Positions 13,855 to 29,905 of a stretch of 49,182 bases of DNA are shown here, piece by piece. Where the stretch lies: positions 1 through 49,182 of the forward strand of contig JAJDVT010000013.1 in NCBI GenBank assembly GCA_022826005.1. The letters are read 5' to 3'. Within the stretch, counting starts at the first letter, position 1; each line of letters begins with the position of its first letter. Source of the DNA: Gemmatimonadota bacterium (lineage in GTDB: Bacteria; Gemmatimonadota; Gemmatimonadetes; Longimicrobiales; Gaopeijiaceae). Under the pieces are notes generated by a model. That model was not told the DNA's origin. It was given only the letters and a program-made list of their open reading frames with translations, and did not search any database. Made by a program: the position numbers and the translations under genes.

Positions 13855-13921
13855 CTTCGATCCCTCCGAAGTCGCGTCCGGCGGACCATCCTCCGTCCCT
13901 CCCGGGTCCGGCGCATGTTCA

Positions 13922-14320: not shown

Positions 14321-15765
14321 CGCCCGCCTCCTTCCGCCACCTCGGCCATGACTTCCCGGACCCGGTCCCCGAACCCGCGCGCGCGTTCCATCACCTCCTC
14401 CTCGTCGACGGTGAGGATTTCGCGGTCGCGCACCACCACCCGGCCGTTCACGATCACGGTGGTCACGTCGCTGCCGCGGGCCGCGTAGACCAGGTGCGAA
14501 TAGACGCGGTAGAGCGGGGTCAGCCCGGGGCGCCGCACGTCCACCAGCACGATGTCGGCGCGCTTGCCCACCTCCAGCGACCCGATCTCGTCGTGCAGAT
14601 TGAGCACCCGCGCGCCGCCCATCGTGGCCATGCGGAAGACCGTCTCCGCCGGGAGGACCGCCGGGTCGCCCAGCATGTACTTCTGGATCTTCGCGGCGGC
14701 ATCCATCTCGTCGAAGAGGTCGAGGTCGTTGTTGCTGGCGGGGCCGTCCGTCCCGATCCCCACCGGGATCCCCGCCTCCAGCGCGGCCGCCACCGGCGCC
14801 GCCCGCGCCACGCCCAGCTTCATGTTGCTCTGGGGATTGTGGGCGATCCCGGCGCCCCCCGCCGCGATGCGCCCGATGTCCTCGTCCGACAGGTAGATCG
14901 AGTGCGCGAGGACCGTCCCGGGCCGGAGCGCCCCGATCGACTCGAGGGCCTCGATCACGCCCATCCCGGTCATCTCGCGGGCGGTCACGTCCTCCGACGG
15001 GTCCTCGACGGCGTGAATCTGGAAGGGCGCGTCGAAGCGCTCGGCGAGCCGGAACGCGGCCTCGACCGCTTCCAGCGGGGTGGTGTAGAGCGCGTGGGCG
15101 GCGACCGCGGGCACCACCGTGGGATGATCCTGATAGCGCTCCATGTACTCCGCCGCGTCGGCAAGCGATTCCTCGGGCGTGGCGAAGTCGGGAGTGGGGA
15201 AGCCGATCACGTGGGGACCGGTGACCGCACGGATGCCGGCGTCGACGGTCGCGCGCGCCACCTCGTCGCGGAAGTAGTACATGTCCGCGAAGGTGGTCGT
15301 GCCGCCCTTCAGCATCTCGACCGATGAGAGCAGCGTGCCCCAGTAAACGAAGTCGGGAGCGACGAGCGCGGCCTCGGCGGGGAAGATGTGGTCGTTGAGC
15401 CAGGTCATCAGCGGGAGGTCGTCGGCGAGGCCGCGCAGCAGCGACATCGCAGCGTGGCCGTGCGTGTTGACCAGCCCCGGGATGACGAGGTGGCCGGTGG
15501 CGTCGATGACCGTGGCGCCGGTGGGGCGGGGATCGTCCGGAGCGAGGACCGCGGCGATGCGGTCGCCCTCGACGAGAACCGCGCCGCCCTCGTGGATGGT
15601 CCCCGCGTCGTCCATCACCACGACCGTGCCGCCGTCGACGAGGAGCGGGCCGTCCAGGTCGGAGGGCCCGGCGTCGCCGGCGCAAGCCGCGAGCAGCAGT
15701 AGGGGCAGGGAAGCCGTCACCGTTGTCCGAAGTCTGAGGGATAGGGCACGAAGGATTTCGTACAT
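14317..15765 (-). CDS. Lipoprotein amidohydrolase of the TRZ/ATZ (MtaD-like) family
   Basis: The protein has 482 residues. An N-terminal signal with lipobox LLLLAAC near residue 28 predicts export and lipidation, unusual for a family that is mostly cytoplasmic. Metal and catalytic motifs of the amidohydrolase superfamily are present: NTHGHAAMSLLRG, QIHAVEDPSE, LAHSIYLSD, HNPQSNMKLG and GTDGPASNNDLD. The set is closest to methylthioadenosine/S-adenosylhomocysteine deaminases and related aminohydrolases; the substrate is not determined. It is the first gene of the blaI-M56 operon and overlaps blaI by 4 bases. It has a recognisable promoter just upstream. Confidence 0.85.
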   Translation of the reverse strand: MYEILRALSLRLRTTVTASLPLLLLAACAGDAGPSDLDGPLLVDGGTVVVMDDAGTIHEGGAVLVEGDRIAAVLAPDDPRPTGATVIDATGHLVIPGLVNTHGHAAMSLLRGLADDLPLMTWLNDHIFPAEAALVAPDFVYWGTLLSSVEMLKGGTTTFADMYYFRDEVARATVDAGIRAVTGPHVIGFPTPDFATPEESLADAAEYMERYQDHPTVVPAVAAHALYTTPLEAVEAAFRLAERFDAPFQIHAVEDPSEDVTAREMTGMGVIEALESIGALRPGTVLAHSIYLSDEDIGRIAAGGAGIAHNPQSNMKLGVARAAPVAAALEAGIPVGIGTDGPASNNDLDLFDEMDAAAKIQKYMLGDPAVLPAETVFRMATMGGARVLNLHDEIGSLEVGKRADIVLVDVRRPGLTPLYRVYSHLVYAARGSDVTTVIVNGRVVVRDREILTVDEEEVMERARGFGDRVREVMAEVAEGGGR

Positions 15766-15777
15766 AACCTTGGATAC

Positions 15778-15820
15778 ACCTTAACTGGCAGCAGGTTCCG
15801 TGTCAACGACAATCTTCGTA
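15778..15820 (-). promoter_or_regulatory. Promoter of the amidohydrolase-blaI-M56 operon
   Basis: On the minus strand TTGACA (15801-15806) and TAAGGT (15778-15783) are separated by 17 bases, a sigma-70-like arrangement ending 12 bases before the start codon. TACGAAGA (15813-15820) lies 6 bases upstream of the -35 box. The same TACGAAGA-N6-TTGACA arrangement precedes the triple-propeller operon at 29811. The -10 match is weak (3 of 6). Confidence 0.5.
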
Positions 15821-15898
15821 AGGACGCCGGGGCCAGCCGCTGCCAGAGGTCGCGCCACAGCGCCGTTCAGCGGCCTCCGCAACCCCTTGCGCGGCCGC

Positions 15899-16987
15899 TC
15901 AACGGCTCAATGGTACCCAGTCGCAGTCGTCGGTTTCAACCTGGATCCGCCGGACGACGGTCTCGGCGTCGCCCCCGCGGATCACCTGATCCAGCACCAG
16001 CAGCAGGTCACCCTCGAAGCCGATGGCGGGGTGCGATCCTTCCTCCAGCGCTACCAATCCGTCCGGGCAGGCGCGGGAGCGGGACGGATCGATGACGCTG
16101 ACCCACAGCGCCTCGGTGCTTACGGGCGGGCCGTCGGTGCCCAGGTCGAAGTGCACCACGAGGAAGGTGCCGTCCGGCCTGCGGTGAATCCCCCGGGTCG
16201 ACGAGAAGACGCCGAAGACATCCGGATACCGGCCGCCCCCGAGCGCCTCCATGACCGCTGCTTCGGGATCCTCGGGGTGTCCCCGCCGGCGCACCGCCGG
16301 GACCTCGAAGCGATCGATCTCTGCACCGTCCGTATCCGTGACGATCAGATAGGGAAGGGGCATGAACCCGACGAGCAGCGTGTCGGCCCACTTCGCAAAG
16401 GGGATCTCGGGGAAGATGCCGCCGACAGGACCGCCCTCCTCGAATTCCTCCGGGAGTCCGACGACGGGCCGGGCTGCGTCATCGCCGAGCTTCATCCGCC
16501 TGATCGCGCTGCGGTGCGTATACTCCGCGCCGCTGAGCCACACTTCCCCCGAGTCGATCACCACGTGGTCGAACACCGTCCTCAGGAGATGGCGCTCCAC
16601 GAACTGGCCGTCGTGCCGCCGAAAGGCGTGAGCCGCGGGCGGGTCCCAGGAAAACACCATGATCCGGTCGTCCCCCCAGGGCAGCGCTATCGCGGCTTCC
16701 TTCCACTCTCCCGGGCCCTCGCCCCCGCGTCCGTAGCGCTGTATGAGGCGTCCCTCCCGGTCGTAGTGAAGCACCCGGGGCTGATCGAAGTCCGCAACGA
16801 GGTAGCCGCCGGTGCCGTCGGGGATGACGGGGGCCGGAAGCACAAGATAGTTGTCACCGGACTCCTCCAGCACGATGGAGTCGAGCACGGTGACGGTAGG
16901 TTGCGCAGAGAGGTGGCCGGCCCGGGCCAGACCGAGGGCGCCCAGCCCGAATGTAAAGGCGACTTTACAAAATGTCGTGTTTTCCAT
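15899..16987 (-). CDS. Secreted six-bladed beta-propeller protein
   Basis: This 362-residue protein starts at ATG 16987, chosen because GGGAG lies just upstream and a signal peptide follows (MENTTFCKVAFTFGLG...HLSAQ). The mature part contains propeller strands (GTGGYLVADFD, RPDGTFLVVHFD) and the GRGGEGPGEW signature. The reading frame extends far upstream but that part shows no homology to anything recognisable. The first codons overlap a tandem dyad element repeated elsewhere in the window. It is a single gene, divergent from the flavin-binding protein at 17215. Function unknown; probably an envelope binding protein. Confidence 0.8.
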   Translation of the reverse strand: MENTTFCKVAFTFGLGALGLARAGHLSAQPTVTVLDSIVLEESGDNYLVLPAPVIPDGTGGYLVADFDQPRVLHYDREGRLIQRYGRGGEGPGEWKEAAIALPWGDDRIMVFSWDPPAAHAFRRHDGQFVERHLLRTVFDHVVIDSGEVWLSGAEYTHRSAIRRMKLGDDAARPVVGLPEEFEEGGPVGGIFPEIPFAKWADTLLVGFMPLPYLIVTDTDGAEIDRFEVPAVRRRGHPEDPEAAVMEALGGGRYPDVFGVFSSTRGIHRRPDGTFLVVHFDLGTDGPPVSTEALWVSVIDPSRSRACPDGLVALEEGSHPAIGFEGDLLLVLDQVIRGGDAETVVRRIQVETDDCDWVPLSR

Positions 16988-16990
16988 ACA
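16952..16990. promoter_or_regulatory. Tandem dyad element, copy A
   Basis: TGTAAAGGCGACTTTACA (16952-16969) and TGTCGTGTTTTCCATACA (16973-16990) have centres exactly 21 bp apart. Both fit TGTMA-N8-TKACA, the first perfectly. The element covers the start codon and first codons of the minus-strand propeller gene. Confidence 0.6.
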
Positions 16991-17214
16991 TGTCTCCCGG
17001 TCCTTCCGCGTGGGCACGCGGGTTCCGCCGACAATCGCCGAGCGAAGACGATAGCTTTTCTGTGCGAGATGACACCATGGGTGCCGGAAGGGTTGCCGGG
17101 AGAAGTGGAACGGGAGCTGGACCGCCCACGCCCCCTTCGGAGTGATGGGCGATCCGGGGCTGTAAGCCACTCGCAACCGGCAATTCGGCGACGCTCCATT
17201 CACAGCTCGGAGAA

Positions 17215-17859
17215 ATGATGACCACGACCGAACGCGCGAAGATCGGCGCCACCAACGCCGGCTTCGACGACCCACGCACCACGCTCCGCCGCCGGGACCG
17301 CGGCAAGGACGACGAATGGGTCGCCGCCTTCCTGGCCCGCGCCAGCTACGGATTCCTGGCGACGGTGGGGCAGGGAGGACAGCCGTTCCTGAACTCGAAC
17401 CTGTTCGTCTACGACGACTCCGGTGGCCGCCGCCGCATCTATCTGCACACGCACCGGACCGGGCGTACGCGCGACAACATCGAGACCGCCGAAAAGGTCG
17501 CGTTCAGTACCGTGGCTATGGGCCGCCTGCTACCGGCTCCGGAAGCCCTCGAGTTCTCGGTGGAGTACGCGGGCGTGGTCGCATTCGGGACCGGGCGGGT
17601 GGTCGAGGACCAGGAGGAGGCGCGCTCCGCCCTGCAGATGCTCCTCGACAAATACGCCCCGCACCTCCGGCCCGGCGTCCACTACCGTCCCACCACCGAC
17701 GACGAGCTCAGGCGCACCGCGGTCTACCGGATCGACATCGAGACCTGGAGCGGCAAGCAGAAGGAGGTGGAGGAGGACTTCCCCGGCGCGTTTGCGCTGG
17801 CGCCTCCGCATGTTCCGTTTCCCGGGCGGGATCCGGGACGGAAGATCACAGTACCCTGA
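17215..17859 (+). CDS. Pyridoxamine 5'-phosphate oxidase-like flavin-binding protein
   Basis: This 214-residue protein begins at ATG-ATG with CGGAGA upstream. The split-barrel pattern of the PNPOx-like superfamily is visible: FLARASYGFLATVGQGGQPFLNS, then RIYLHTHRTGRTRDNI (the H-G-x-x-R-x-x-N region typical of FMN contacts) and EKVAFSTVAMG. The protein resembles the flavin-nucleotide-binding/NimA-like branch more than true PdxH. Substrate unknown. It lies between a propeller gene and a convergent VapC-like toxin, whose last 14 bases overlap its 3' end. Confidence 0.82.
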   Translation: MMTTTERAKIGATNAGFDDPRTTLRRRDRGKDDEWVAAFLARASYGFLATVGQGGQPFLNSNLFVYDDSGGRRRIYLHTHRTGRTRDNIETAEKVAFSTVAMGRLLPAPEALEFSVEYAGVVAFGTGRVVEDQEEARSALQMLLDKYAPHLRPGVHYRPTTDDELRRTAVYRIDIETWSGKQKEVEEDFPGAFALAPPHVPFPGRDPGRKITVP

Positions 17860-18265
17860 ACCCCTCGCGGCGCGCTGCCGCAGAGAGACGATCGTCGCTG
17901 CTCACCATGTCCAGCCGCTGCGGGTCTTCGCCCGCAGCCGTCAGCGCCGCCGCCAGCTGCAGCGCATCGGCCGCGCGCAGCGGATGAAGCCGCAGCAACC
18001 TGATCGCGCGCCGGCGCACCTGCTCCAGAGGCTCGATCTCGACCCAACTCGCAGCCAACAGGCCCAGCTGGTCCATCGACCGGTCAAAGCCGTCCCCCTC
18101 GAAACGGTGGTTTCGCTCCAGGCGGTTCAGAGCCGACGCGCATTCGATCCGGCTTCCCCACCAGGTCACGATCACGGAATCCCGGCGTATGGTCGCGCGG
18201 CGCTCGACGCTACGCGGCTCGTCCACTACGAGTGCCACCAGAGCCGATGAGTCCCAGTACTTCAA
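17846..18265 (-). CDS. vapC: PIN-domain toxin, VapC-like
   Basis: The protein has 139 residues. The N-terminal MKYWDSSALVALVVDEP contains the first PIN aspartate, followed by IECASALNRLE (conserved Glu), LRAADALQLAAAL (conserved Asp) and VSSDDRLSAAARREG (C-terminal Asp), so the RNase active-site set is complete. It starts with TTG at 18265, overlapping the antitoxin stop by TTGA, the normal coupling in such pairs. It runs convergently into the PNPOx-like gene with a 14-base overlap. Likely a sequence-specific RNase held inactive by the upstream antitoxin. Confidence 0.88.
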   Translation of the reverse strand: MKYWDSSALVALVVDEPRSVERRATIRRDSVIVTWWGSRIECASALNRLERNHRFEGDGFDRSMDQLGLLAASWVEIEPLEQVRRRAIRLLRLHPLRAADALQLAAALTAAGEDPQRLDMVSSDDRLSAAARREGFRVL

Positions 18266-18561
18266 TCGCGCGCCGCCCGCTCGGCCACGATGATCTCGCT
18301 GGCCCTCGCGCCCTTCGTCAGCCGAGCCACGGGCCGACCCAGGAACCGCTCGACATCAAGCGGCGCACGAGGTGGAACGGCCACGCCGCGGCGCACGATC
18401 TCGGCCATCGCGGGCTCGGCGTCGGGGCCGTCGACATCACAGGGTTCGATCCGCGCGACGGGCCGTCCGCGGTGCGTTATCAAAACCGCTTCGCCGCGCC
18501 GAACCTCGCTCAGCAATCCGCTGAGTCCGTTTTTCGCTTCACTTACACTGGCCCGTTTCAT
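18262..18561 (-). CDS. Phd/YefM-type antitoxin of the VapC-like toxin
   Basis: This 99-residue protein starts at ATG 18561. The start MKRASVSEAKNGLSGLLSEV with VLITHRGRPVARIEP matches the Phd/YefM DNA-binding fold. The C-terminal tail (FLGRPVARLTKG...) is expected to wrap the toxin. A longer upstream frame exists but has no antitoxin homology. The pair with the PIN toxin downstream is sufficient for a type II module, probably autoregulated. The long leader upstream holds a dispersed repeat and a tandem dyad element. Confidence 0.87.
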   Translation of the reverse strand: MKRASVSEAKNGLSGLLSEVRRGEAVLITHRGRPVARIEPCDVDGPDAEPAMAEIVRRGVAVPPRAPLDVERFLGRPVARLTKGARASEIIVAERAARD

Positions 18562-18634
18562 CTGGCCATTATGGTCATGTGGAAGTAGCCTGTCAAGCGT
18601 CCGCCTCCGCACGCACGGCGGAACCAAACAGGCC

Positions 18635-18714
18635 GTGGATAAGCCCAGCGGCGCACCGAGGGCCGCGAGGCGCCAGGCTGGCAAGGCGCGACGAAGGGCG
18701 AATAGCAGGGCTAC
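18635..18714. repeat. Dispersed ~80-bp repeat, copy 1
   Basis: This stretch aligns without large gaps to 35110-35190, sharing blocks such as AAGCCC, GCACCG, GGCTGGCA, GGCGC and CGAATAG; about three quarters of bases agree by eye. Both copies are in the same orientation and lie at or just beyond gene ends. Confidence 0.55.
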
Positions 18715-18757
18715 TTGCACGAGGAGCAACGCAGAGCGGCGCTCTGGACGCCCCGAA

Positions 18758-18796
18758 TGTAAAGAAAACACGACAGATTGTAATGTTGTCATGACA
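18758..18796. promoter_or_regulatory. Tandem dyad element, copy B
   Basis: TGTAAAGAAAACACGACA (18758-18775) and TGTAATGTTGTCATGACA (18779-18796) have centres 21 bp apart. The second fits TGTMA-N8-TKACA exactly; the first has CGACA in its right arm. It lies about 200 bp upstream of the antitoxin start, in otherwise gene-free DNA. Confidence 0.55.
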
Positions 18797-18873
18797 GTGC
18801 GAAGTGAATGAGCGCCGCGGCCAGCGTGGATGCATCGCCGCCCGAATGCAGCGGGGACTTATTCCACGGCCTG

Positions 18874-20289
18874 CTACCCCGCGTGTTTTGCCGCCAGCGC
18901 CTCCAGCCCGGCGTCGATCTCCTCGCGGCTGACCCACCGCCCCCGCACCATCACCCCCACGCGGTCGACCAGGTTGCCCAGGTCGTCGAGAGGATTGGAC
19001 CCCAGCAGCACCAGATCGGCGCGCTGTCCCGGCACGATCGTCCCGAAGCTGCCGTCGAGCCCCAGGTGTGACGCGACGTATTCGCCCACCGTGGCCGTTC
19101 CGCTCTTCAGGATCTCGTAGCTGGACATCCCCGTTTCCGACATCACCGCGAGCTCCCGGTGGAGCGCGAACCCCGGCACGTTGAAGAGCTGCGGCGAATC
19201 GGTTCCCATCAGGATCCCGGCGCCCGCGTCCGAAAGCTCCTTCAGGACGCGCATCCGCAGCGCGAGGTACACGTCGGCTCCCTCCCGGCCCGAGCCGGCC
19301 CGACGCCGCCAGCTGTCGCGGGTCCGGGGTGAGACGTACTTCATCTCGGGCTGCTGAAGGAAGCGGTCCGCGTCCGGCCCGCCGTACAGGTTTTCCCAGA
19401 GGTACATCGTCGGCACCACGTAGACATTGTGGTCGATCGTGAGCTGGATGATGTCGGCCAGCTTGGCTTCGTCCACTCCGCGCGCCAGGCCGGCCAGGCT
19501 GATCTGGCCGACGCTCACCTGGGCCTGCACGTCATCGGAGGCGATCGCCTGGATGTAGCCGTCCAGGTGGTCGACGGTCGACATGCCGGTTTCGATCGCG
19601 TGCACCAGCCCGACATCCTGCGGGACGTGGCCCCCGAAGGTGAGGCCCTCCTCCCGGGCGACCTCCGCCATCCGGTCCCACGCCGCGCGCGGCACCCCCG
19701 GGTGGATCTTCTGCAGATCGTAGCCGGCTTCCACGTGGGCGCGGATCAGCGCTTCCGCCGCCTCCGGCGTGCGTGCGGTGTTGCCGTTGAGCGACGGGGC
19801 GCCGACGTAGAAGTTCGGGCCGAGCACTTCGCCGCGCTCGAGTTCGTCCGCGAGCGGGATCTGGTAGGCGGATCCCAGCATGCCCCGGATGGTGGTGATC
19901 CCGTTGGCGACGTAGAGGAAGAGGATGTCCTCCACATCTTCGCGGGGCGGATTGGCCCCCGGCGGGACGTGCGCGTGCATCTCGGCGAGGCCCGGCATGA
20001 GGTACCGGCCTTCGCCGTCGATGACGGTGGCACCGCGGGGGACGCGGGTCTCGCCCGCCGGCCCGGCCGCGATGATCACTCCGTCCCGCACCACGACGGT
20101 CTGGCCGGGCAGCACGGCGTCCGACGTCATCGGCAGCACGCTCACGTTGGTGAACGCCGTCAGGCCCGGCACGGGGGTCGGCGCGGGCCATCCGGTGGCG
20201 CAACCCGTGACGGCCGGCACGACCGCCAGCGCTGCGAACGCCCCGGCGCGCGCCTTCAATCCGATTGGTACCCTCTTCATTCCAGTCAT
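18874..20289 (-). CDS. Lipoprotein amidohydrolase, imidazolonepropionase-like
   Basis: The protein is 471 residues, or 468 if it starts at the fourth codon (MKRVPIG). The N-terminal signal ends in VTGC, a lipobox-like site, so it is probably exported. Superfamily motifs are in order: EMHAHVPPG (HxH), YDLQKIHPG (Lys), TFGGHVPQDVGL (His), STVDHLDGY (His) and ILMGTDSPQLF (Asp), then the closing GQRADLVLLGSNPL. These fit the secreted HutI-like group whose members include peptidase-like and lactonase-like enzymes; the true substrate cannot be told. It stands alone, transcribed away from the DUF418 gene. Confidence 0.87.
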   Translation of the reverse strand: MTGMKRVPIGLKARAGAFAALAVVPAVTGCATGWPAPTPVPGLTAFTNVSVLPMTSDAVLPGQTVVVRDGVIIAAGPAGETRVPRGATVIDGEGRYLMPGLAEMHAHVPPGANPPREDVEDILFLYVANGITTIRGMLGSAYQIPLADELERGEVLGPNFYVGAPSLNGNTARTPEAAEALIRAHVEAGYDLQKIHPGVPRAAWDRMAEVAREEGLTFGGHVPQDVGLVHAIETGMSTVDHLDGYIQAIASDDVQAQVSVGQISLAGLARGVDEAKLADIIQLTIDHNVYVVPTMYLWENLYGGPDADRFLQQPEMKYVSPRTRDSWRRRAGSGREGADVYLALRMRVLKELSDAGAGILMGTDSPQLFNVPGFALHRELAVMSETGMSSYEILKSGTATVGEYVASHLGLDGSFGTIVPGQRADLVLLGSNPLDDLGNLVDRVGVMVRGRWVSREEIDAGLEALAAKHAG

Positions 20290-20568
20290 TTCGGTCCCCC
20301 TTCGACTCCAAGGAGCGCGGTTCCCCTGCCGTCCGGCCCATTCACGTGTGCTCCAAACATGATACGGCCTCGCGATGCCGCCTGCCTCCCCGAGGATGCG
20401 CCGGCCTCAGACTGCGCCCGCTACAAGGATGCGCCGGCCCCACACTGCACCGGTCTTCCGAGTCTGGCCCCGCCGGCCGTCCCGGACGTACACTGAACTG
20501 CCCGGCCGACTGCCCCCTTTGCAGCCGCCCTCCCATCGGCCCGCCCAACCCCCAACCCCGGAGCCGTC
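20290..20568. other. Divergent intergenic region with a 22-bp direct repeat
   Basis: The gap between the divergent amidohydrolase and DUF418 genes contains an imperfect direct repeat GGATGCGCCGGCC...ACTGC at 20394-20415 and 20427-20448, a 33-bp period. No clear promoter or gene is seen. Confidence 0.5.
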
Positions 20569-20613
20569 ATCACCACCCCCGTCGCCAAATCCGAACGGAT
20601 CGCCGCCATCGAT

Positions 20614-21780
20614 GTGCTCCGCGGCTTCGCCGTGCTGGGCATTCTCATGGTCAATGTCCAGGGCTTCGCGCGAATCTCGTCCGCGTACTCGAACCCCGCC
20701 GCGGGCCGCGTCCTGGAAGCCGCCGACCAGTGGACGTGGGCCCCGATCTACCTCTTCTTCGACACGAAGTTCATCTCCATCTTCTCGCTGCTCTTCGGCG
20801 TCGGCATCGCGATCATGAGCGAACGCATGGCCGGCCGCGGCCTCTCCGGTACCGGCCTCCACTACCGCCGCCAGCTCTGGCTCCTGGTGATCGGCCTGTT
20901 GCACGCCTTCCTGATCTGGCACGGCGACATCCTCGTCTCCTACGCGCTGTGCGGCTTCCTGCTCTACCCGCTGCGCAACCTCGCGCCCCGGCGGCAGCTC
21001 TGGATCGGCGGGGCGGCGGTCTCGGTGGTGGCCATTTTGCTCGGCCTGATTGCGCTTGCCATCCCCTACATGCCGGAGGCGGAGCGGGCCGCGCTCATGG
21101 CGGAATGGGCGCCTCCGCAGGAGGAAATCGACGCCGAGATTGCCGCCTTTCGGGGTTCGTGGACCGACCAGCTGCCTGAGCGGGCGTCGCTCTACGGGCT
21201 CTTTATGGGCGGCGTCTTCCCATTCTTTGTGTTTTGGCGCGCCGGAGGCCTGATGCTGGTCGGCATGGCGCTCTACCGGCTGGGTGTCGTCACGGGTGCG
21301 CGCTCGGCCGCATTCTACCGCAGGATGGCCGTGCTCGGCCTGGCACTCGGCCTCCCTCTGTCCGGGTGGGGAGCGTCCATCATGCTGCGGCCCGGCGTCG
21401 AGGCGGACCAGGCGATGTTCCCCCCGCTCCTGCTCAACTACATCGGATCGGCCGGAGTCTTCCTGGGGTACGTGGCGCTGGTCATGCTGATGGTGAAGGG
21501 CGGCTGGCTGACCTCGCTTCGGCGGCGTCTGGAGGCGGCGGGCCGCATGGCGCTGACCAACTACATCACACAGAGCATCCTCTGCTCGCTGGTCTTCTAC
21601 GGGCATGGGCTCGGCCTCTTCGAGCGGGTGAGCGCGCCGGGCCAGGCCGGGATCGTGGTCGCCATCTGGGTGCTGCAGCTCGCGTGGTCTCCCTGGTGGC
21701 TGGCTCGCTTCCGCTTCGGGCCGCTGGAATGGATCTGGCGGTCGGCTACGTACATGGAATGGCAGCCGCTGAGGGTGTGA
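20614..21780 (+). CDS. DUF418 family polytopic membrane protein
   Basis: At least 388 residues with about eight or more hydrophobic segments. The N-terminal LRGFAVLGILMVNVQGF and the C-terminal half (GRMALTNYITQSILCSLVFYGHGLGL, then LAWSPWWLARFRFGPLEWIWRS) are the hallmark of DUF418 proteins. The first standard start in frame is GTG 20614, but the family normally begins about 10 residues earlier with R-I-x-x-x-D. Here those residues (SERIAAID) are encoded upstream, from about 20569, without an ATG, GTG or TTG. A non-standard start or a sequence error is possible. Function of the family is unknown; a transport role has been suggested. Confidence 0.85.
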   Translation: MLRGFAVLGILMVNVQGFARISSAYSNPAAGRVLEAADQWTWAPIYLFFDTKFISIFSLLFGVGIAIMSERMAGRGLSGTGLHYRRQLWLLVIGLLHAFLIWHGDILVSYALCGFLLYPLRNLAPRRQLWIGGAAVSVVAILLGLIALAIPYMPEAERAALMAEWAPPQEEIDAEIAAFRGSWTDQLPERASLYGLFMGGVFPFFVFWRAGGLMLVGMALYRLGVVTGARSAAFYRRMAVLGLALGLPLSGWGASIMLRPGVEADQAMFPPLLLNYIGSAGVFLGYVALVMLMVKGGWLTSLRRRLEAAGRMALTNYITQSILCSLVFYGHGLGLFERVSAPGQAGIVVAIWVLQLAWSPWWLARFRFGPLEWIWRSATYMEWQPLRV

Positions 21781-21871
21781 CGCCGAGCGGTCCGGAGGGA
21801 TCGCCTCCGGCAGGCGCCCGCGGCCCCCAAGAGGCGCAACCGAACCGAGGATTGACAGACGCAAGGGACCA

Positions 21872-23095
21872 ATGAACAAGCCGCAACGATTGCTGGACCC
21901 GAAGGAAGTGCTGCGCGTCATGGACGCCGCGCAGGTCATCCACGAGCGGCAGGCGGCGCTGGAAGAGCACGAAGCGCTCGACCGCGACGCAACCGTCCGC
22001 GAAATCCAGGTCATGTACGAGGAGCTGGGAGACCTCGTTGATGCAAGGGTGATCGAAGACGCGCTCGACGAGTATCTCGCCCAGCGCTACGCCTTCACTC
22101 CTGGGCGGCCCGGTCTCAAGCGCGGGCTGGCGCTCCTCTACATCCGGCGCGGTTGGGTGGCGAAGCGGTTTCTTGCGCCGGCCGCGGTACTGGCCGCGCT
22201 CGTCTGGGGTGGGTTCGCGCTCACCGACGCCATGCGGACGAACGCGCTCGAGCGTGACGCCGGGCGGCTGCAGGCGGAAGTGGCGCGCCTTGAGGCGGCC
22301 ATCGATTCCGATCTGGGCGAGATCCGGGCGCTCCGCGCGCAGGGCGTCCCTGACGACCTCCCCGCCGACGAGATCGAAGCCTTCGCGGCCGGTCTCGCGT
22401 CGGCCGAGAGCCAGTTGGCCCAGATCGGCGCGACGTTGGCGCCGATCGCCGAAGAGGCCGGCCGGGACGGGCTCACCCGCGCCACGATCACCGGCCTGAA
22501 CCAGAGGGCGGAAGCCGTCGCGGACAGTCGTGCGTTCGCCCGCAGCGACATCATGGGTGCCGATTTTCTGGTCGAACGCCACGCTCGCCTGGGCGCTCTG
22601 GACGCGGAGGTAGCGGGGCTGCACGCCGCCGTGCTGGCGGAGGCGGTCGAGGAGTTGGGGCGCGAACGGGCCGCCGAGCTCGGGCGGAGCGCCGACGCGC
22701 AGCTGGCCGGCCGGGATCTCGACGGGCTCGAATCGACCGCCGAGAGCTACCGCCAGCTACACGCGCTGATCGGCTCGGAGTACGAGATCGTGATCGTCGG
22801 GGGAGTCTGGCGCTACCACAACGAACTCGACGGCGTGCGCAACTACTACCTGCGCGTTCAGGCAGTCGCCGGGGACGGGCAGCAGCTGCCGGTCACGATC
22901 CGCAACGAGGAGGACGGGAGCACCGCCCGGGTGATGGAGTGGGGGGAGCGGGTCCCGAAGGAGGTGTACGACCGGATCGCCAGCGATCGGCAGGACAACG
23001 GCATCATCGACGACGACGATTTCGGCTTCAAGCGGCGGGGCTTCATGACCGCGGAGCGGAACTACGAGGACCTTGGCCAGATCACGAGGTGGTAG
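21872..23095 (+). CDS. Coiled-coil single-pass membrane protein, DUF6384-like
   Basis: This 407-residue protein starts at ATG 21872. The N-terminal ~90 residues are soluble (PKEVLRVMDAAQVIHERQAALEEHE... ARVIEDALDEYLAQRYAF) and resemble DUF6384. One membrane segment (RFLAPAAVLAALVWGGFAL) lies near 107-125, then a long helical region rich in Ala, Glu and Arg, and a C-terminal folded part (YEIVIVGGVWRYHNELDGVRNYYLRVQAV). The next gene starts 2 bases after its stop, so the two form an operon and probably one complex. Function unknown; the DUF assignment is from memory of the N-terminal pattern. Confidence 0.72.
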   Translation: MNKPQRLLDPKEVLRVMDAAQVIHERQAALEEHEALDRDATVREIQVMYEELGDLVDARVIEDALDEYLAQRYAFTPGRPGLKRGLALLYIRRGWVAKRFLAPAAVLAALVWGGFALTDAMRTNALERDAGRLQAEVARLEAAIDSDLGEIRALRAQGVPDDLPADEIEAFAAGLASAESQLAQIGATLAPIAEEAGRDGLTRATITGLNQRAEAVADSRAFARSDIMGADFLVERHARLGALDAEVAGLHAAVLAEAVEELGRERAAELGRSADAQLAGRDLDGLESTAESYRQLHALIGSEYEIVIVGGVWRYHNELDGVRNYYLRVQAVAGDGQQLPVTIRNEEDGSTARVMEWGERVPKEVYDRIASDRQDNGIIDDDDFGFKRRGFMTAERNYEDLGQITRW

Positions 23096-23097
23096 CC

Positions 23098-24501
23098 ATG
23101 CATACGGGGAGAGACGTGCACCGCGACTTGGTGAAGCGGATCCGGAAGGTGCGGCGGGCGGTGGCCCGTGAGGAGGAGGGGATCCAGGAGCTGCAGCGCC
23201 AGGTGGCGGAGAGCGGCGAGCGCAGGGCGGCGACGGTGCGGGCGCTGGCCGAGTTCCACCTGCCGGGGATGAACGAGGCGTCGGTCGAGGGGACGCTCGC
23301 CGAGATGGAGGGGGGCATCCGCGCGATCTACGAGGAGAAGAAGGACCGCCTGGACGTGGTCGAGCGGTCGATTCCGGAGCAGCGCGAGGTGGTGGAAGGG
23401 GCGGAAGCCGCGCTGGAGACGGTGACCGATGCGCTGAACGAGACCGGGAGGGAGCGGGCGCGCCTGGCGCGGGTCGTGTACGCGGAGTTGCAGGGGATGC
23501 CAAGGTGGAAGCGCCTCTTCGAGCAGGTGCGGAAGCTGGAGGCCCGGGTCCTGGCGTCGGAGAAGCGGCGCGAGGCCGCCGTGCGGGAGCAGCGGGAGAA
23601 GACGCCCGCGTACGAGCGCGACCCGTTCTTCGGGTACCTGTCGCGCCGCGGGCATGGGACGAAGGCCGCCGCAGGGAACGCGCTTACACGGCGACTCGAT
23701 CGGTGGGTGGCGGCGGTGACGGACTACGAAGCCGTGCGTGCGAAGTACGACCTGCTCAATGCGCTTCCCGGCCAAGCGGAGTCCGCCCTCGAGAAGGACC
23801 GCAATGCGCTTGCGGTTGCCAGCCCGCCGTTGGAGAGGCTGGAGGCGCAGGTGATCGACCGCAACGGCATGACACCGGTGCTCGAGCGGGGTGACCGGCT
23901 GTACGCGGAGCGCGAGGAGGCGCGCGAGGCTCTCCGGGATGCGGAGGGCGCGCTGCGGGGGCTTACCGAGGAACTGGCCGCGCTCCACGACGAGCGGGGA
24001 TCGTACTACGAGGAGGCGATCGACGGGATCGAGGCGTACCTGGAGGGGCGCTCGCTGGATGAACTCGTAGTCATGGCCCGAGAGACCGGCGACCTCCGCG
24101 ACGATGCGCTCGTGGCGGAGCTGTACGAAGTCGGCGAGCGCCTCGTCCACCTCCGCGACCGGCTCGCCGCATGCAGGGAGGAGCGTTCCCGCATCGCGTC
24201 CCGCCTCAGCGAACTGGAGGACCTCCGCGACCGCTTCGAGGCGGAGGACTGGAACGGGCGCCGCTCGCAGTTCGACGACTCGCTCGACGTGAATGCGCTC
24301 CTGCTGGGATTCATGGCCGGGAGACACTCGTCCGGCCGACTCTACCGGACGCTGCGCCGACACCAGCATTTCCGGACCCTCGGGGACAGCGGGTTGGGCG
24401 GCAGCGGGTTCCGGTCAGGCGGAGGCTTCGGCGGCGGCGGTTTCAGCACCGGAGGAGGGTTTGGAGGCGGCGGGGGGTTCAGTACGGGAGGCGGGTTCTA
24501 A
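23098..24501 (+). CDS. Coiled-coil protein with Gly/Phe-rich C-terminal tail
   Basis: This 467-residue protein starts at ATG 23098, two bases after the preceding stop. It is almost entirely charged heptad-like helix (REEEGIQELQRQVAESGERRAA, EEAREALRDAEGALRGL and similar), with no signal peptide or membrane segment. The last ~45 residues are a low-complexity tail of G-G-G-F and F-S-T-G-G-G repeats. Such tails recall TPM/YgcG-type proteins and other anchoring or phase-separating tails. No known domain is recognised with confidence. Pairing with the membrane coiled-coil protein upstream suggests a structural or envelope-associated complex. Confidence 0.75.
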   Translation: MHTGRDVHRDLVKRIRKVRRAVAREEEGIQELQRQVAESGERRAATVRALAEFHLPGMNEASVEGTLAEMEGGIRAIYEEKKDRLDVVERSIPEQREVVEGAEAALETVTDALNETGRERARLARVVYAELQGMPRWKRLFEQVRKLEARVLASEKRREAAVREQREKTPAYERDPFFGYLSRRGHGTKAAAGNALTRRLDRWVAAVTDYEAVRAKYDLLNALPGQAESALEKDRNALAVASPPLERLEAQVIDRNGMTPVLERGDRLYAEREEAREALRDAEGALRGLTEELAALHDERGSYYEEAIDGIEAYLEGRSLDELVVMARETGDLRDDALVAELYEVGERLVHLRDRLAACREERSRIASRLSELEDLRDRFEAEDWNGRRSQFDDSLDVNALLLGFMAGRHSSGRLYRTLRRHQHFRTLGDSGLGGSGFRSGGGFGGGGFSTGGGFGGGGGFSTGGGF

Positions 24502-24590
24502 GGTCACGCTCTCCCTGAACATCGCCGATCGGTGCGCGGTCCTTCAAATCGGTCGTGCAGACGCGCCGGGCAGCTTTCGTTTGCCTGAGA

Positions 24591-24629
24591 TGTAAAGACA
24601 ACCTTACATTCTGTCATGTCCAGTATACA
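24591..24629. promoter_or_regulatory. Tandem dyad element, copy C
   Basis: TGTAAAGACAACCTTACA (24591-24608) and TGTCATGTCCAGTATACA (24612-24629) have centres 21 bp apart. The second dyad contains the ATG (24616) of the following propeller gene. The first fits TGTMA-N8-TKACA exactly. Confidence 0.6.
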
Positions 24630-25884
24630 TTCTGCCGTTCGAGGGCCTCGCCCTGCGGTGCGTGCTGGGCGATCTGCGCTGCGCCGCGTGGGCCATGCCG
24701 CCATCGTCCTGCTCTGCGCGGGCTGCGGCGTTTCCGACCGGAGCGACGTGGCCGGGCCGAGCCGTACAGACAGCGCGGGAGTGGAGATCGTCCGGAACGC
24801 GGATGAGCCGCTCCGTCGCGGGGAACTGGTTCAGCCCGCCCGGCGCGTCTTCGGTTCCGAGGAAGAGGGCCCGGAACTGTTCGGCAGCGTCGGCACCACT
24901 CGATTACACGCGAACGGATCACTGTGGATCGCGGATGCGCAGGCCCAGGAGATCCGGGTATTCGACCCCGGCTCCGGGGCGCATCTGTTCACGATCGGTG
25001 GGAAAGGCGACGGCCCCGGTGAGTTCCGGCGGAGCGGCTTCCTCGGTTTCGATGGCGAAGGAAACGCTTACGTGTACGACTATGAGCACCGGCGGCTATC
25101 GGTGTTCTCCGGGAGCGGCGAGTTCCAGCGCGGCCACCTGTTGCCTGCGTCCCTCGGCATCTCGCCGCTGCCGCTTCATGTGACCCGGACGGGAACTCTC
25201 TTTGGTCAGATACCGCAAGGGCTGGAGCGCCGCCCGGTCGACGGCTCACTACGGAGGGACACGGTCAAGATCTGGACCATGCCGGTGGAAGGGACAGCCC
25301 CGACCCTGGTGTCGAAGACCCTGGGCGCACTGTGGTACTTCCACGATGGAACACAGGTCACCGTACCGTTCGCCAGCGGTTCACGACCGGGCTTCCGGGA
25401 CGACCGGGTCTACGCGATCGATGCCGTCGGGGAAGCGTCGTACTCCGTCTACGGCCCGGCGGGTCTCGAGCGCAGGGTCGAGATCGACCGGCCGCCCCGG
25501 CGGATCGATGACCACGCCGTGACGATGTTCCTTGAGGGTATGCGACGCAGCCCCGTGCCCGACTCCCAGCTGCGAATCTACGAAGAGCACCTGTCCGACA
25601 TGCCGATCCCGGAGGCGCGACGCTATTGGGATGGCCTGGTCTTCCCGGATCAGGGTGACGCGTGGCTGTTGCGGGCCGGCGACCCCTTTGCGGCGCCCGC
25701 TGGCGACCCCGCGGACGGTCAGGTCTGGGACATCTTCGACGCCGAGGGCGTCTTCATCGGCCATGTGTCCCTGCCCGCCAACGTCGAGCTGATGCAGGTG
25801 ACGGGAGACACCGCGCTGACGATCGTGTCTGACGAGATGGGCCGCGCCACGGTGGCCATCCATGACATTCGCTGGATCGGGTAA
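24616..25884 (+). CDS. Six-bladed beta-propeller lipoprotein
   Basis: The protein has 422 residues from ATG 24616. A basic n-region, hydrophobic HAAIVLLCAGC and a lipobox near residue 36 predict a lipoprotein. Propeller strands (ANGSLWIADAQ, GEGNAYVYDYE) and the signature GGKGDGPGEF identify the family. No ribosome binding site precedes this ATG, which lies inside a tandem dyad element, so a downstream GTG is a possible alternative. It converges on the triple-propeller operon with an 8-base gap. Role unknown. Confidence 0.8.
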   Translation: MSSIHSAVRGPRPAVRAGRSALRRVGHAAIVLLCAGCGVSDRSDVAGPSRTDSAGVEIVRNADEPLRRGELVQPARRVFGSEEEGPELFGSVGTTRLHANGSLWIADAQAQEIRVFDPGSGAHLFTIGGKGDGPGEFRRSGFLGFDGEGNAYVYDYEHRRLSVFSGSGEFQRGHLLPASLGISPLPLHVTRTGTLFGQIPQGLERRPVDGSLRRDTVKIWTMPVEGTAPTLVSKTLGALWYFHDGTQVTVPFASGSRPGFRDDRVYAIDAVGEASYSVYGPAGLERRVEIDRPPRRIDDHAVTMFLEGMRRSPVPDSQLRIYEEHLSDMPIPEARRYWDGLVFPDQGDAWLLRAGDPFAAPAGDPADGQVWDIFDAEGVFIGHVSLPANVELMQVTGDTALTIVSDEMGRATVAIHDIRWIG

Positions 25885-25892
25885 GGGTTCGC

Positions 25893-27170
25893 CTACCCCC
25901 CGCCCACCACGATCCGGTAGCGCACGATCCGCTCGACGCCGATTTCGTCCTGGCTCACCGCCCAGACATGATCGCCATCGAAGACCGGGCGCCGCGCGCC
26001 GGCAAAGCCCTCGGGCGGGACGACGGTCCCGAGGTAGGTTCCGTCGGGCTCGAAGACATCGTACCGCAGCGGCGACCGCCACAAGACCGGCTCCGAGTTG
26101 GGAACCTGCGGGTCGTAGAACTCGTTGTCGACGGGCTGTGCCTCTGTCGACAACGTGACCCAGATGCGTCCATCCCGGCCGGCGGCGAGCCCCCGAAAAG
26201 GTGGCCTGGTTGTTGGAATCGGCGGCCCGTTCCAACGCCAGTCGGGCTGGGTGACCCTCATGCTGCGGATGATATCCTCGCGGTGATAGCTGCGTTCCTC
26301 TGCCGATACAGCAACCGGAACAACGACGCGTTCCATTCGCAGCACCCCACTGTCGAGCTCCAGGTGAATGCGGTAGTCGGATGATATCCCCGTCACGAAA
26401 TGGCCGCTGGGGTGCAGGGCCCAGTAGTGGCGGGCCGTCAAAGGGATGGGGACCAACCTCTTGGAGGTGAAGGGGCCCAAGGTAGGCTGGAGTTCCAGCG
26501 AAGGTGGCTCAAAACCGCCCCCGGGGGGGAGTTGCGTGCCCAGTTGCGTGCCATCCGGGCCGATGGCGATCAATGGAAGGCCGATTCGGCCGCTCGGATC
26601 CCTCTGAATCCCCACGACGAATGTTCGGCCGCGCCGGTCGACCTCCACCGGCCTTGCGGGCGTCGGTGCGCCGTCGGTGCTGTACCGCCATTGCTGCGTC
26701 TCACGCGGCCCGGGACCGTACACCTGAATACGCAGTGCGCGTGATTCGTGCACCACAACACGGCCGTCGGGCAAGGTGGCGACAGAGGTCCCGAAGCTCA
26801 GCTCACCCGGCCCTTCCCCTCGCCCGCCGAGCGTCCTCACATAGGTGCCGGTCGAATCGAAGACCTGGACATGTTGAGCCTGTGTGTCCAACACGTACAC
26901 GTTCCGGTCGTCGTCCACCGCGAAAGAGCCCATTCTCCCGAACAGGTACTCCTCCGGCCCGTCCAGCTCGCCGATTGCGAACTCCGGCACGAGGGTAGCT
27001 TCCGCGCCCCAAACGCTACCCGACAGCGTGCGCACCACCGTGGTGTCGCCACGTATTTCGACAACCTGTTCGTGCTGCTCCGCACTTGCATCGTACGGCA
27101 CTGGGTCATCCGAGGTGCAAGCGGTCAGGACAGCCGTGGCCAATGCGGTTACCGTGGTCCTCGTTGACAT
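25893..27170 (-). CDS. Six-bladed beta-propeller lipoprotein, third gene of a tandem triplet
   Basis: The 425-residue protein starts at ATG 27170 with GGAG upstream; the frame continues further upstream but only as the antisense-like overlap of its neighbour. A short signal with AVLTAC predicts lipidation near residue 18. It shares with the next two genes the blocks GDTTVVRTLSGSVWGAEATLVPE, LDGPEEYLFGRM, GGRGEGPGEL, HPSGHFVTGISSDYRIHLE, WNGPPIP and the C-terminal VRYRIVVGGG. It lies about 90 bases after the middle paralogue and is probably co-transcribed. No catalytic residues are evident. Confidence 0.85.
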   Translation of the reverse strand: MSTRTTVTALATAVLTACTSDDPVPYDASAEQHEQVVEIRGDTTVVRTLSGSVWGAEATLVPEFAIGELDGPEEYLFGRMGSFAVDDDRNVYVLDTQAQHVQVFDSTGTYVRTLGGRGEGPGELSFGTSVATLPDGRVVVHESRALRIQVYGPGPRETQQWRYSTDGAPTPARPVEVDRRGRTFVVGIQRDPSGRIGLPLIAIGPDGTQLGTQLPPGGGFEPPSLELQPTLGPFTSKRLVPIPLTARHYWALHPSGHFVTGISSDYRIHLELDSGVLRMERVVVPVAVSAEERSYHREDIIRSMRVTQPDWRWNGPPIPTTRPPFRGLAAGRDGRIWVTLSTEAQPVDNEFYDPQVPNSEPVLWRSPLRYDVFEPDGTYLGTVVPPEGFAGARRPVFDGDHVWAVSQDEIGVERIVRYRIVVGGG

Positions 27171-27262
27171 TCGATCTCCGTCGCTCGCGCGTTGCCGAGT
27201 CAGCCGAGGATAGGGAGTGGGTCCGTTGCTGTCAAAACGGAGAGCGCAGCTGTTGGTTCCCG

Positions 27263-28558
27263 TTACCCCCCGCCCACCACGATCCGGTAGCGCACCACCC
27301 GCTGGACCTCCATTTCGTCCCGGCTTACCGCCCACACATGCTCGCCGTCGAAGATCGGCACTGCCGGCGAGGCGAGGAAGCCTTCGGGGGCGGCGAGTGC
27401 ACCCAGGTACGTGCCGTCCGGCTCGAACGCGTCGTAGCGGACCGGTGACTCCCACGAGACCGGCTGCGAGCTCGGGTCGTCCGGGTCGTGATCCTCGTTG
27501 ACGACCGGGTAGGCCTCCGTCCAGAGCTGGACCCAGATGCGTCCGTCGTTGCCGGCCACGATACCGCGGAAGGGCGGCTTCGTCTCGGGGACCGGCGGTC
27601 CGTTCCAGCTCCAGTCGGGCTGGGTGCGCCGCAGTCCCTCGGTGACGACTTCGCGATGGTAGCCGCGTTCGGCCTCCGATACGGGGACCGGCTCCCAGTT
27701 GCGCTCGATGCGCAACACTCCATCGTCGGTTTGCAGGTCGACGCGGTAGTCGCTCGAAATCCCCGTCACAAAACCACCGTTCGGATGCACGGTCCAGTAG
27801 TGACGGGCCGTGAGCGGGACGAATCGTGATGCCGTGGTCCGGCCGTTCATCACAAAGGGAAGGCGGACCTCCACGAAGGGCGGCTCGAAGCCGGCGCCCG
27901 GGGGGGAGAGCGAGTCCAGGAGTTCGCCGTCCGGGCCCATCACCCTGACGTACTCGATGACGTCCCCGGCCAAGCTTCCGGCGGATGCCACGAGGATGCG
28001 GCCGTTGCGGTCGATGCGCAGCGGCTTGACGGGGATGACGAAGGCGCCCGCCGGGAACGCCCAGTGCTCCCGGTCCGCGGTCGACGGCCCCACGACCTTG
28101 ACGAACATGTCCCCGACGTCGTGGGCGATGATGCGCCCGTCGGGCAGGACCGCGACCGACACGGCGTTGTTGAGCTCACCCGGCCCTTCTCCCCGCCTCG
28201 TCATCGTCTCCAGGTAGGTGCCCTCCGAGTCGTAGACACGGAGGTCCCGGGCCTGTCCGTCCAGGACGTACACCCGCCCGTCTTCGTCCACCGTGATGGC
28301 GTATATGCTGCCGAAGAGGTATTCGTCGGGGCCGTCCAGCTGGCCGATCGCGACCTCCGGGACCAGAGTGGCCTCCCCGCCCCACACGCTGCCGGACAGT
28401 GTGCGTACCACGGTGGTGTCGCCAATGGTCTCGACAACGACATCGGGTGCAGTCCCGGCCGGATCCGCGTCGGCGCCACAGGCGGTGGCCCCGGCCAGGA
28501 ACAGGAGGCGCGACGCGATTCTGGCAGCCATGTTCCCTAGGCAATGCATCGCGTTCAT
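27263..28558 (-). CDS. Six-bladed beta-propeller lipoprotein, second gene of a tandem triplet
   Basis: The protein has up to 431 residues; starts at codons 1, 4 and 10 are all possible, with ATG 28558 overlapping the upstream stop (ATGA). The hydrophobic segment RLLFLAGATAC suggests a lipoprotein although the lipobox is imperfect. The paralogous blocks of the triplet are all present (GDTTVVRTLSGSVWGGEATL, LDGPDEYLFGS, RRGEGPGELNNA, GGFVTGISSDYRVDLQ, WNGPPVPETKPPF). The ATGA overlap indicates coupled translation with the first paralogue. Confidence 0.85.
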   Translation of the reverse strand: MNAMHCLGNMAARIASRLLFLAGATACGADADPAGTAPDVVVETIGDTTVVRTLSGSVWGGEATLVPEVAIGQLDGPDEYLFGSIYAITVDEDGRVYVLDGQARDLRVYDSEGTYLETMTRRGEGPGELNNAVSVAVLPDGRIIAHDVGDMFVKVVGPSTADREHWAFPAGAFVIPVKPLRIDRNGRILVASAGSLAGDVIEYVRVMGPDGELLDSLSPPGAGFEPPFVEVRLPFVMNGRTTASRFVPLTARHYWTVHPNGGFVTGISSDYRVDLQTDDGVLRIERNWEPVPVSEAERGYHREVVTEGLRRTQPDWSWNGPPVPETKPPFRGIVAGNDGRIWVQLWTEAYPVVNEDHDPDDPSSQPVSWESPVRYDAFEPDGTYLGALAAPEGFLASPAVPIFDGEHVWAVSRDEMEVQRVVRYRIVVGGG

Positions 28559-29811
28559 TCCGGGTCGCCCACCACGATCCGATACCGGACCACCCGCTCT
28601 ACGCCGAACTCATCGGTGGTCACCGCCCAGACGTGGTCGCCGTCGAAGACCGGGAGCGGCTGGTTGCCGAAGTCTTCCGGGGGGACCACCACCCCCAGGT
28701 AGCTGCCATCGGGCTCGAAAACATCGTAGCGGAGCGCTTCGCGCCAGAACACGGGGGCCGACCGGGGATTGTCCGGATCGTGGTTCTCGTTCTCGATGGC
28801 CTGCCCCTCGGTGGACAGCATCGCCCAGATGCGTCCGTTCCTGCCTGCGAGCAGCGCCTTGAAGAACGGCTTGTGATCGGGGATCGGCGGGCCGTTCCAG
28901 CTCCAGTTCGGCTGGGTGTTCCGCATGCTTCGGGTGATGCGACCGCGTTGGTGGTCGCGCTCGCCCTCCGACACCGCCACCGGATCGTAGGCGCGCTCGA
29001 TTCGCAGCACGCCGTTGTCGTGCGGAAGGTGGATGCGGTAGTCCGACGAAATGCCCGTCAGAAAGTGACCGCTTGGATGAACCGTCCACATGAGCCTTGG
29101 TGAGAAGGGGACGATCGCACTCGACCAACCGGTTCCCCCCTCGCTCGTGTACTCGGCCGTCAGGGTCGCCTGTTCATACCGGCTCGAGGGCTGCGGAATC
29201 GTGTCGACGGGCGTTCCGTCCGGCCCCAGGACGATGAGTTGAATGACGAAGTCCGTGCGGGACATGTCCCGGGCCAACACGAAGGTGCGACCGAGCCCGT
29301 CGGTATACAGGGGCTCCGTCGAACCGTAGTTGCCGGAGTTATATCCCCATTCGTCCAGTTCGCCCCGGCCGGGGCCGAACACCTGGACCCGCATGTTGCC
29401 TGGATCCCGGACGACCAGCCGTCCGTCCGGCAACAGTGCGATCGCCTCCGGGTACATGAATTTGCCCGGCCCCTCTCCTCGTCCGCCCAGCGTCTCGACG
29501 TACGTCCCTGCCGAGTCGTAAACCTGGACGTGATAGGCCTGGTCGTCGAACACGTACACGGTCCAGTCGTCGTCCACGGCGATCGACCCGATCCGCCCGA
29601 AGATGTACTCCTCCGGGCCGTCGAGCCTGCCGATTGTGGTCTCGGGAACGAGGGTGGCCTCCGCGCCCCAGACGCTGCCCGCAAGCGTGCGGACCACGGT
29701 GGTGTCACCGATGGTTTCGGTGACAACATCCGGCGCGGTCCCAGCCGGGACCCGGTCGGTGCAGGCGGCGGCCCCGGCAAGGATGAACAGGAGAGCGGGG
29801 GTTCTGGTCAT
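28555..29811 (-). CDS. Six-bladed beta-propeller lipoprotein, first gene of a tandem triplet
   Basis: The 418-residue protein starts with MTRTPALLFILAGAAAC, a short signal peptide with a lipobox-like end. It carries the same conserved blocks as the two downstream paralogues, with GGRGEGPGKF as a variant of the family signature. A GAAGAAAG lies before the ATG. A sigma-70-like promoter with an upstream TACGAAGA element is found at 29863-29905, the same arrangement as at the blaI-M56 operon. The triplet probably arose by tandem duplication. Confidence 0.85.
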   Translation of the reverse strand: MTRTPALLFILAGAAACTDRVPAGTAPDVVTETIGDTTVVRTLAGSVWGAEATLVPETTIGRLDGPEEYIFGRIGSIAVDDDWTVYVFDDQAYHVQVYDSAGTYVETLGGRGEGPGKFMYPEAIALLPDGRLVVRDPGNMRVQVFGPGRGELDEWGYNSGNYGSTEPLYTDGLGRTFVLARDMSRTDFVIQLIVLGPDGTPVDTIPQPSSRYEQATLTAEYTSEGGTGWSSAIVPFSPRLMWTVHPSGHFLTGISSDYRIHLPHDNGVLRIERAYDPVAVSEGERDHQRGRITRSMRNTQPNWSWNGPPIPDHKPFFKALLAGRNGRIWAMLSTEGQAIENENHDPDNPRSAPVFWREALRYDVFEPDGSYLGVVVPPEDFGNQPLPVFDGDHVWAVTTDEFGVERVVRYRIVVGDPE

Positions 29812-29851
29812 TGCTTTCTTCGTTTGTCCGACGAATTGATTATCACGAGAA

Positions 29852-29905
29852 TCTTCGTATCAACAATACGGTCCGGCTCGGGAGATGTCAACTATGTTCT
29901 TCGTA
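29852..29905 (-). promoter_or_regulatory. Promoter of the triple-propeller operon with TACGAAGA elements
   Basis: On the minus strand TTGACA (29886-29891) and TATTGT (29863-29868) are 17 bases apart. TACGAAGA at 29898-29905 lies 6 bases upstream of the -35 box, exactly as at 15801-15820. A second TACGAAGA at 29852-29859 overlaps the expected transcription start, a position suited to repression. A second, weaker promoter (TTGTTG 29861-29866, 16-base spacer, GATAAT 29839-29844) overlaps it. Confidence 0.55.

Follow-up and report, generated by a model that had tools for sequence, protein, structure and literature searches.

Gene content and promoters of the two operons

The window, that is, the whole 49,182-nucleotide stretch of Gemmatimonadota DNA analysed here, carries on its minus strand two operons with promoters of the same design, designated P1 and P2. 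The first operon apparently spans 15765 to 5663; several of its genes overlap by 4 bp, and a propeller gene stands at its end.

14317 to 15765, minus strand: amidohydrolase lipoprotein, TRZ/ATZ, nucleoside/SAH-deaminase-like group, first gene of operon 1 (PF01979, 232 bits; NCBIfam TRZ/ATZ below cut-off)
13922 to 14320, minus strand: blaI, Penicillinase_R winged-helix repressor, 132 aa (PF03965, 99.2 bits against a cut-off of 22.6; MecI/BlaI structures, E 2e-9)
12319 to 13854, minus strand: M56 sensor-protease (HEEEH, ExxxD) whose C-terminal part is a TonB-plug-like domain, and which carries the invariant Ala-Cys, an internal motif resembling a lipobox (PF05569, PF07715, alignment, PDB matches to BlaR1 and plug)
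11538 to 12281, minus strand: orphan C-terminal half of an M56 protein, TM/lipobox and plug-like domain, predicted lipoprotein (Pfam, sequence)
10067 to 11518, minus strand: M56 sensor-protease, HELEH (PF05569, 57.7 bits)
8460 to 10070, minus strand: M56 sensor-protease, HELEH, 4-bp overlap with the previous gene (PF05569, 52.2 bits)
6988 to 8463, minus strand: M56 sensor-protease, HELEH, 4-bp overlap (PF05569, 52.9 bits)
5663 to 6991, minus strand: six-bladed propeller protein, secreted, which probably closes operon 1; overlaps the preceding gene by 4 bp (PF17170, 21.8 bits, narrowly below the cut-off)

BlaI has the winged-helix Penicillinase_R domain of the BlaI/MecI family over its whole length, and its recognition helix, GYTTVLKMLQILE, carries Lys50 and Gln53. 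A frame in the list of open reading frames, 13851 to 14249, was rejected as BlaI, being another frame with no Pfam match; the real gene is the one given above. The second operon encodes three propeller lipoproteins.

28555 to 29811, minus strand: propeller lipoprotein 1, 6-bladed beta-propeller/NHL (PF17170, PF01436; lipobox AAC)
27263 to 28558, minus strand: propeller lipoprotein 2, 4-bp overlap with propeller 1 (PF17170, 28.7 bits)
25893 to 27170, minus strand: propeller lipoprotein 3, start taken at MSTRTTVTALATAVLTAC (PF17170, 28.4 bits)

Another propeller-like lipoprotein gene (24616 to 25884, plus strand) is convergent on this operon. Matches of L145, L147 and L148 to the window frames o23062, o20407 and o21746 were left out, since these frames look like opposite-strand shadows of genes.

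The original prediction held that both operons share the architecture TACGAAGA-N6-TTGACA-N17-TAnnnT, and this proved exact in every coordinate and spacing on the minus strand: TACGAAGA lies at 15820-15813 in P1 and 29905-29898 in P2, with the further copy that had been placed over the expected transcription start of P2 indeed present at 29859-29852. The similar continuation of the copies (ATTGTCG, ATTCTCG) was also seen, but the unit is larger than supposed, as TACGAAGA is one half of a 16-bp dyad, TACGA-N6-TCGT, and the continuation is its second arm, TCGT. The copies named earlier are real, although the inventory had overlooked the downstream dyad of P1. Each promoter thus has two dyads, O1, which overlaps the -35 box (TACGAAGAnnnTCGTTGACA) so that its right arm runs into that box, and O2, 46-58 bp downstream.

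15805 to 15820, minus strand: O1 of P1, TACGAAGATTGTCGTT, a TACGA-N6-TCGT dyad sharing bases with the -35 box; kept in front of blaI operons in the genus
15778 to 15806, minus strand: P1 core, TTGACA 15806-15801, 17-bp spacer, TAAGGT 15783-15778 (sequence)
15747 to 15762, minus strand: O2 of P1, TACGAAATCCTTCGTG, 58 bp beyond O1 and immediately behind the amidohydrolase ATG, encoding YEILR
29890 to 29905, minus strand: O1 of P2, TACGAAGAACATAGTT, one TACGA half and one TAGTT half; identical O1 in the relative G005
29863 to 29891, minus strand: P2 core, TTGACA 29891-29886, 17-bp spacer, TATTGT 29868-29863 (sequence)
29844 to 29859, minus strand: O2 of P2, TACGAAGATTCTCGTG, 46 bp beyond O1 and covering the place where transcription is expected to start

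The window holds four copies of TACGAAGA against 0.23 expected from shuffles; the fourth (25579-25586, plus strand), inside a propeller gene where it forms Tyr-Glu-Glu codons, is incidental. The O2 of P1 lies within the reading frame and fixes the amidohydrolase N-terminus as MYE..R, and amidohydrolase orthologues without an operator directly before them have different starts.

Distribution of the operator in genome, genus and family

As a bare dyad (TACGA-N6-TCGTA, one mismatch) the site occurs at 36 places in the window's own genome against 25 for the reversed control, and is therefore too loose, unlike the form anchored on the -35 box, which is specific. A search for TACGAAGA-N6-TTGACA, as had been proposed, gave 3 occurrences in 4.85 Mb and none for the reversed control, and TACGAAGANNNTCGTTGACA with at most one mismatch gave four matches: P1, P2 and two further sites, C119 and C51, both of which also have the dyad pair. 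The C119 site precedes an M56 gene without blaI, and the C51 site an in-frame M56 remnant followed by a propeller lipoprotein. P1 and P2 are therefore half of a four-promoter regulon of blaI, M56, propellers and one amidohydrolase. The C51 remnant (L178 1651-1938, reversed orientation; G000:C51) retains residues 1-46 and then 437-485 of the same M56 as at C119, its deletion sitting between an intact operator pair and the propeller gene; this may be an intermediate on the way to the window's propeller operon, which has no M56. The gene order operators, M56, propeller 1, propeller 2 is found in G005, G020 and G022, and judged by this order the P2 operon is the relatives' operon with its M56 gene lost. 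The M56 gene standing between the same operator pair and the propellers in the relatives supports the earlier proposal that M56 sensing is linked to propeller output.

The close relatives are metagenome-assembled genomes of Gemmatimonadota/Longimicrobiales, which we take, from sample names and from Palauibacter, to be sponge-associated. In the 23 genus genomes compared, each of the 32 close matches stands in front of a blaI operon (17), an M56 or M56 C-terminal gene (13) or, directly, a propeller gene (2), so that the motif is not scattered over many unrelated promoters, the outcome that the original prediction had named as damaging to it. Ten of the 15 matches outside blaI operons have, by our count, a propeller-related gene among the following genes. 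BlaI orthologues (77-97% identity) are present in 21 of the 23 genomes, the window's own included, and in 17 of these 21 O1 precedes the blaI operon, nearly always with O2 and whatever the gene order. G002, G004 and G009, with BlaI 77-79% identical, have kept O2 with a degraded O1, and in G006 the locus is cut off by the contig end.

Orthologues of the amidohydrolase occur in 22 of the 23 genomes, and the gene order around them varies. The operator pair lies between amidohydrolase and blaI in G016, G017 and G019; G020 and G022 have a further M56 between these genes, with the pair before that M56, and G022 has a second pair directly before blaI. No operator precedes any of 17 amidohydrolase homologues (60-83% identity) that have no BlaI nearby and come from Palauibacter, Rhodothermales, Acidobacteria or cyanobacterial records, and the amidohydrolase was therefore rejected as the owner of the operator. 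Since the pair moves with blaI and is absent from the blaI-less loci, the operator belongs to blaI. Six amidohydrolase homologues without blaI nearby (L236, L242, L243, L248, L252, L255) are 79-83% identical and come from records labelled cyanobacteria or Rhodothermaceae, possibly through gene transfer among sponge symbionts or through mis-binning.

The site (at most one mismatch) was found in 36 of the 121 genomes of the family scan, 35 of them with a BlaI orthologue (E<=1e-40), against 17 of the 85 site-less genomes (Fisher p=2e-16, which overstates independence because genomes of one genus share ancestry); the reversed control pattern was found in one genome among the 121. G097 has the site and no BlaI match at the threshold used. 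G014 has the propeller operator and lacks the BlaI orthologue, but its BlaI locus may simply be missing, as the assembly is also without the amidohydrolase. In a second genus O1 is present in 10 of 10 BlaI-bearing genomes, and for more distant BlaIs a dyad lies within 300 bp upstream in 18 of 19 (exact TACGA-N6-TCGTA in 13), the nineteenth being on a contig with only 140 bp upstream. Inverted-repeat operators over the promoter of the repressor's own operon, as in the BlaI family, are hence found in the genus, the second genus and distant genera. Across the 51 O1 copies compared, the central bases vary and the arms hardly change; an O2 accompanies 48 of them, at a distance of 44-50 or 57-59 bp. 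The longer spacing exceeds the shorter by about one helical turn, a difference compatible with two dimers bound to the same face of the helix.

An element of the generic promoter or UP type, with no relation to BlaI, would also overlap a canonical TTGACA -35 box at fixed spacing, as this motif does. Such an element is hardly credible here given that the 4.85-Mb genome has only four close matches, that every match in the genus precedes genes of the three kinds, that a second dyad follows the promoter, and that the site is nearly absent from genera without a BlaI orthologue.

Operator recognition and the candidate regulator

Lys50 and Gln53 are invariant in 49 BlaIs of the TACGA type, in a recognition helix region of the form YTTVLKxLQIL. 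A paralogous group of BlaIs, about 50% identical (11 read), has Thr or Ser at position 50 and Arg at 53, and where a site was detected their promoters carry TACTA/TCCTA-N6-TAGTTGACA. This covariation between operator base and recognition helix is expected from base-specific contact by BlaI and is the strongest sequence argument for BlaI as the binder; it points to a specificity switch, base 4 against residue 50, between paralogous BlaI regulons. The TACTA operator also stands on two propeller genes paralogous to that of C51, L159 in the same genome and L146 in G010. The genome encodes 15 BlaI-family genes, so cross-talk is possible. In the stretches L040, L041, L042, L045 and L037, upstream of other blaI paralogues, the TTGACA promoters of another BlaI group of this genome are surrounded by TACGACAT/ATGTCGTA-like repeats; TACTAT/ATAGTA-like dyads occur at the C47 BlaI paralogue.

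Position by itself does not separate autoregulation from regulation by a linked factor, and some other co-occurring transcription factor might bind the dyad, with blaI merely one of the regulated genes. We consider this improbable: where gene order changed, no further candidate regulator was seen to accompany the site, operator base and BlaI recognition residues change together between paralogues, and in its 16-bp length and paired arrangement the operator agrees with the BlaI/CopY family (PMC7253601, PMC8457756).

A somewhat more serious alternative, still with a small share of the probability, leaves operon 1 under its own BlaI and places P2 mainly under, or shared with, a paralogous BlaI. 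The O1 of P2 is a hybrid of TACGA and TAGTT halves, a form that recurs in G005 (C105), G010 (C87:258069) and G014 (C127), and the paralogous BlaIs, two of which are in this genome (C33, C67), use TACTA-N6-TAGTT. Because the right arm is imperfect, affinity could be lower, or the site could be shared with a paralogue. Against control by the paralogue, the O2 of P2 is a clean TACGA-N6-TCGT dyad, and in G020 and G022 the corresponding propeller promoters show TCGTT arms. Hybrid O1 sites of this kind, found at some propeller and M56 promoters, look as if readable by two BlaI paralogues.

Control of both operons by the one BlaI encoded in operon 1, as originally predicted, is strongly supported by co-occurrence, gene-order changes and covariation, and is the best-supported reading of these sequences. 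We put at roughly 0.87 the probability that P1 and P2 belong to one BlaI regulon, in which BlaI would repress through O1 and O2 and M56 proteolysis would relieve the repression. The paired dyads, their overlap with the promoters, their conservation, the co-occurrence with BlaI, the covariation and the operon contents are all read from the DNA itself, and from them we infer binding, repression, relief and a signal. A BlaI dimer would bind O1 and cover the -35 box, and the second dyad, at or just after the transcription start, would also be bound. BlaI would in this way repress its own operon (amidohydrolase, blaI, four M56 sensor-proteases, the orphan M56 C-terminal half and the propeller protein) as well as the three-propeller lipoprotein operon. 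An M56 protein activated through its extracytoplasmic C-terminal domain, TonB-plug-like in several, would then inactivate BlaI by its cytoplasmic zinc protease, by analogy with staphylococcal BlaR1, and all operons with the paired operator would be induced together.

The sensors and relation to known systems

In an alignment of 18 M56 proteins of the regulon H175, E176, H179, E216 and D220 are invariant, as in the HExxH and ExxxD motifs of BlaR1, and the M56 profile matches BlaR1 structures over its protease part, with 8exp aligned at profile positions 173-288 (E 4e-4). The extracytoplasmic part of the first M56 in the window (12319-13854) matches TonB plug domains, as does the orphan half (11538-12281); by Pfam, no plug domain was found in the other three M56s of the window, and no penicillin-binding (transpeptidase-like) domain in the four window M56s or that of C119. 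As several sensors are plug-like and none has a detectable penicillin-binding domain, their signal is probably not a beta-lactam. Neither a beta-lactamase nor an alternative PBP was found among the scanned genes of the operons, unlike in a beta-lactam resistance operon; an amidohydrolase and propellers take their place. In all 18 aligned proteins a hydrophobic segment ends in an invariant Ala-Cys, after which Asp or Glu comes in most cases (LVAACDVPMPT, for example); this resembles a lipobox placed internally. That 11538-12281 encodes such a C-terminal half by itself, as a predicted lipoprotein, suggests that the sensor half may undergo processing or exchange.

Taken together, the sequences most likely describe a relative of the penicillin switch that controls membrane sensor-proteases and surface propeller lipoproteins rather than a beta-lactamase. 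Pairs of BlaI and M56 occur widely, and annotations generally assign them to penicillin sensing; a regulon defined by its operator, target operons, co-varying recognition residues and sensors in which no penicillin-binding domain was detected would give the BlaI/M56 set a concrete non-antibiotic role in sponge-associated Gemmatimonadota. It is tempting to speculate further, though we hold this as somewhat less than an even chance, that M56 proteins of growing number, with diverse and often plug-like extracytoplasmic domains, all feed one BlaI switch, and that their genes spread through the genome together with an operator pair and a propeller lipoprotein, alongside at least one paralogous BlaI regulon of the same design recoded at base 4 (TACTA), the hybrid operator of P2 joining both. 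No precedent for M56 with plug, or M56 with propeller, together with BlaI was found in the literature searched, and the titles and abstracts found for Gemmatimonadota and BlaI concern other matters, mostly community ecology.

Of the known systems, the copper repressors CopY/CopR are homologous and likewise use a 16-base operator, two per promoter, but theirs is RNYKACANNTGTMRNY, they have no M56 partner, and their copper-sensing C-terminal Cys-X-Cys motifs are absent from this BlaI sequence (PMC7253601). The BlaI regulons of Clostridium thermocellum, defined by DAP-seq, are small and self-including, with two dyads per promoter; that of BlaI_0696 comprises three operons with two dyads each, covering blaI, two blaR1 genes and an output gene of unknown function, although its dyad has GTCTAT arms five apart and no propeller lipoproteins are reported (PMC8457756). 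The staphylococcal and Bacillus BlaI-BlaR1 and MecI-MecR1 systems share with the present one a BlaI-family repressor with an adjacent M56 sensor-protease (HExxH, ExxxD) and more than one dyad operator over the repressor's own promoter, and BlaR1 inactivates BlaI proteolytically on signal (PMC9834060). In the present operons, by contrast, no penicillin-binding sensor domain, beta-lactamase or PBP2a was found, TonB-plug-like domains form the end of several sensors, one repressor goes with several M56 genes, TACGA serves as the operator arm, and the outputs are propeller lipoproteins and an amidohydrolase. The comparison of sequences supports a BlaI/BlaR1-like system with differing sensors and outputs.
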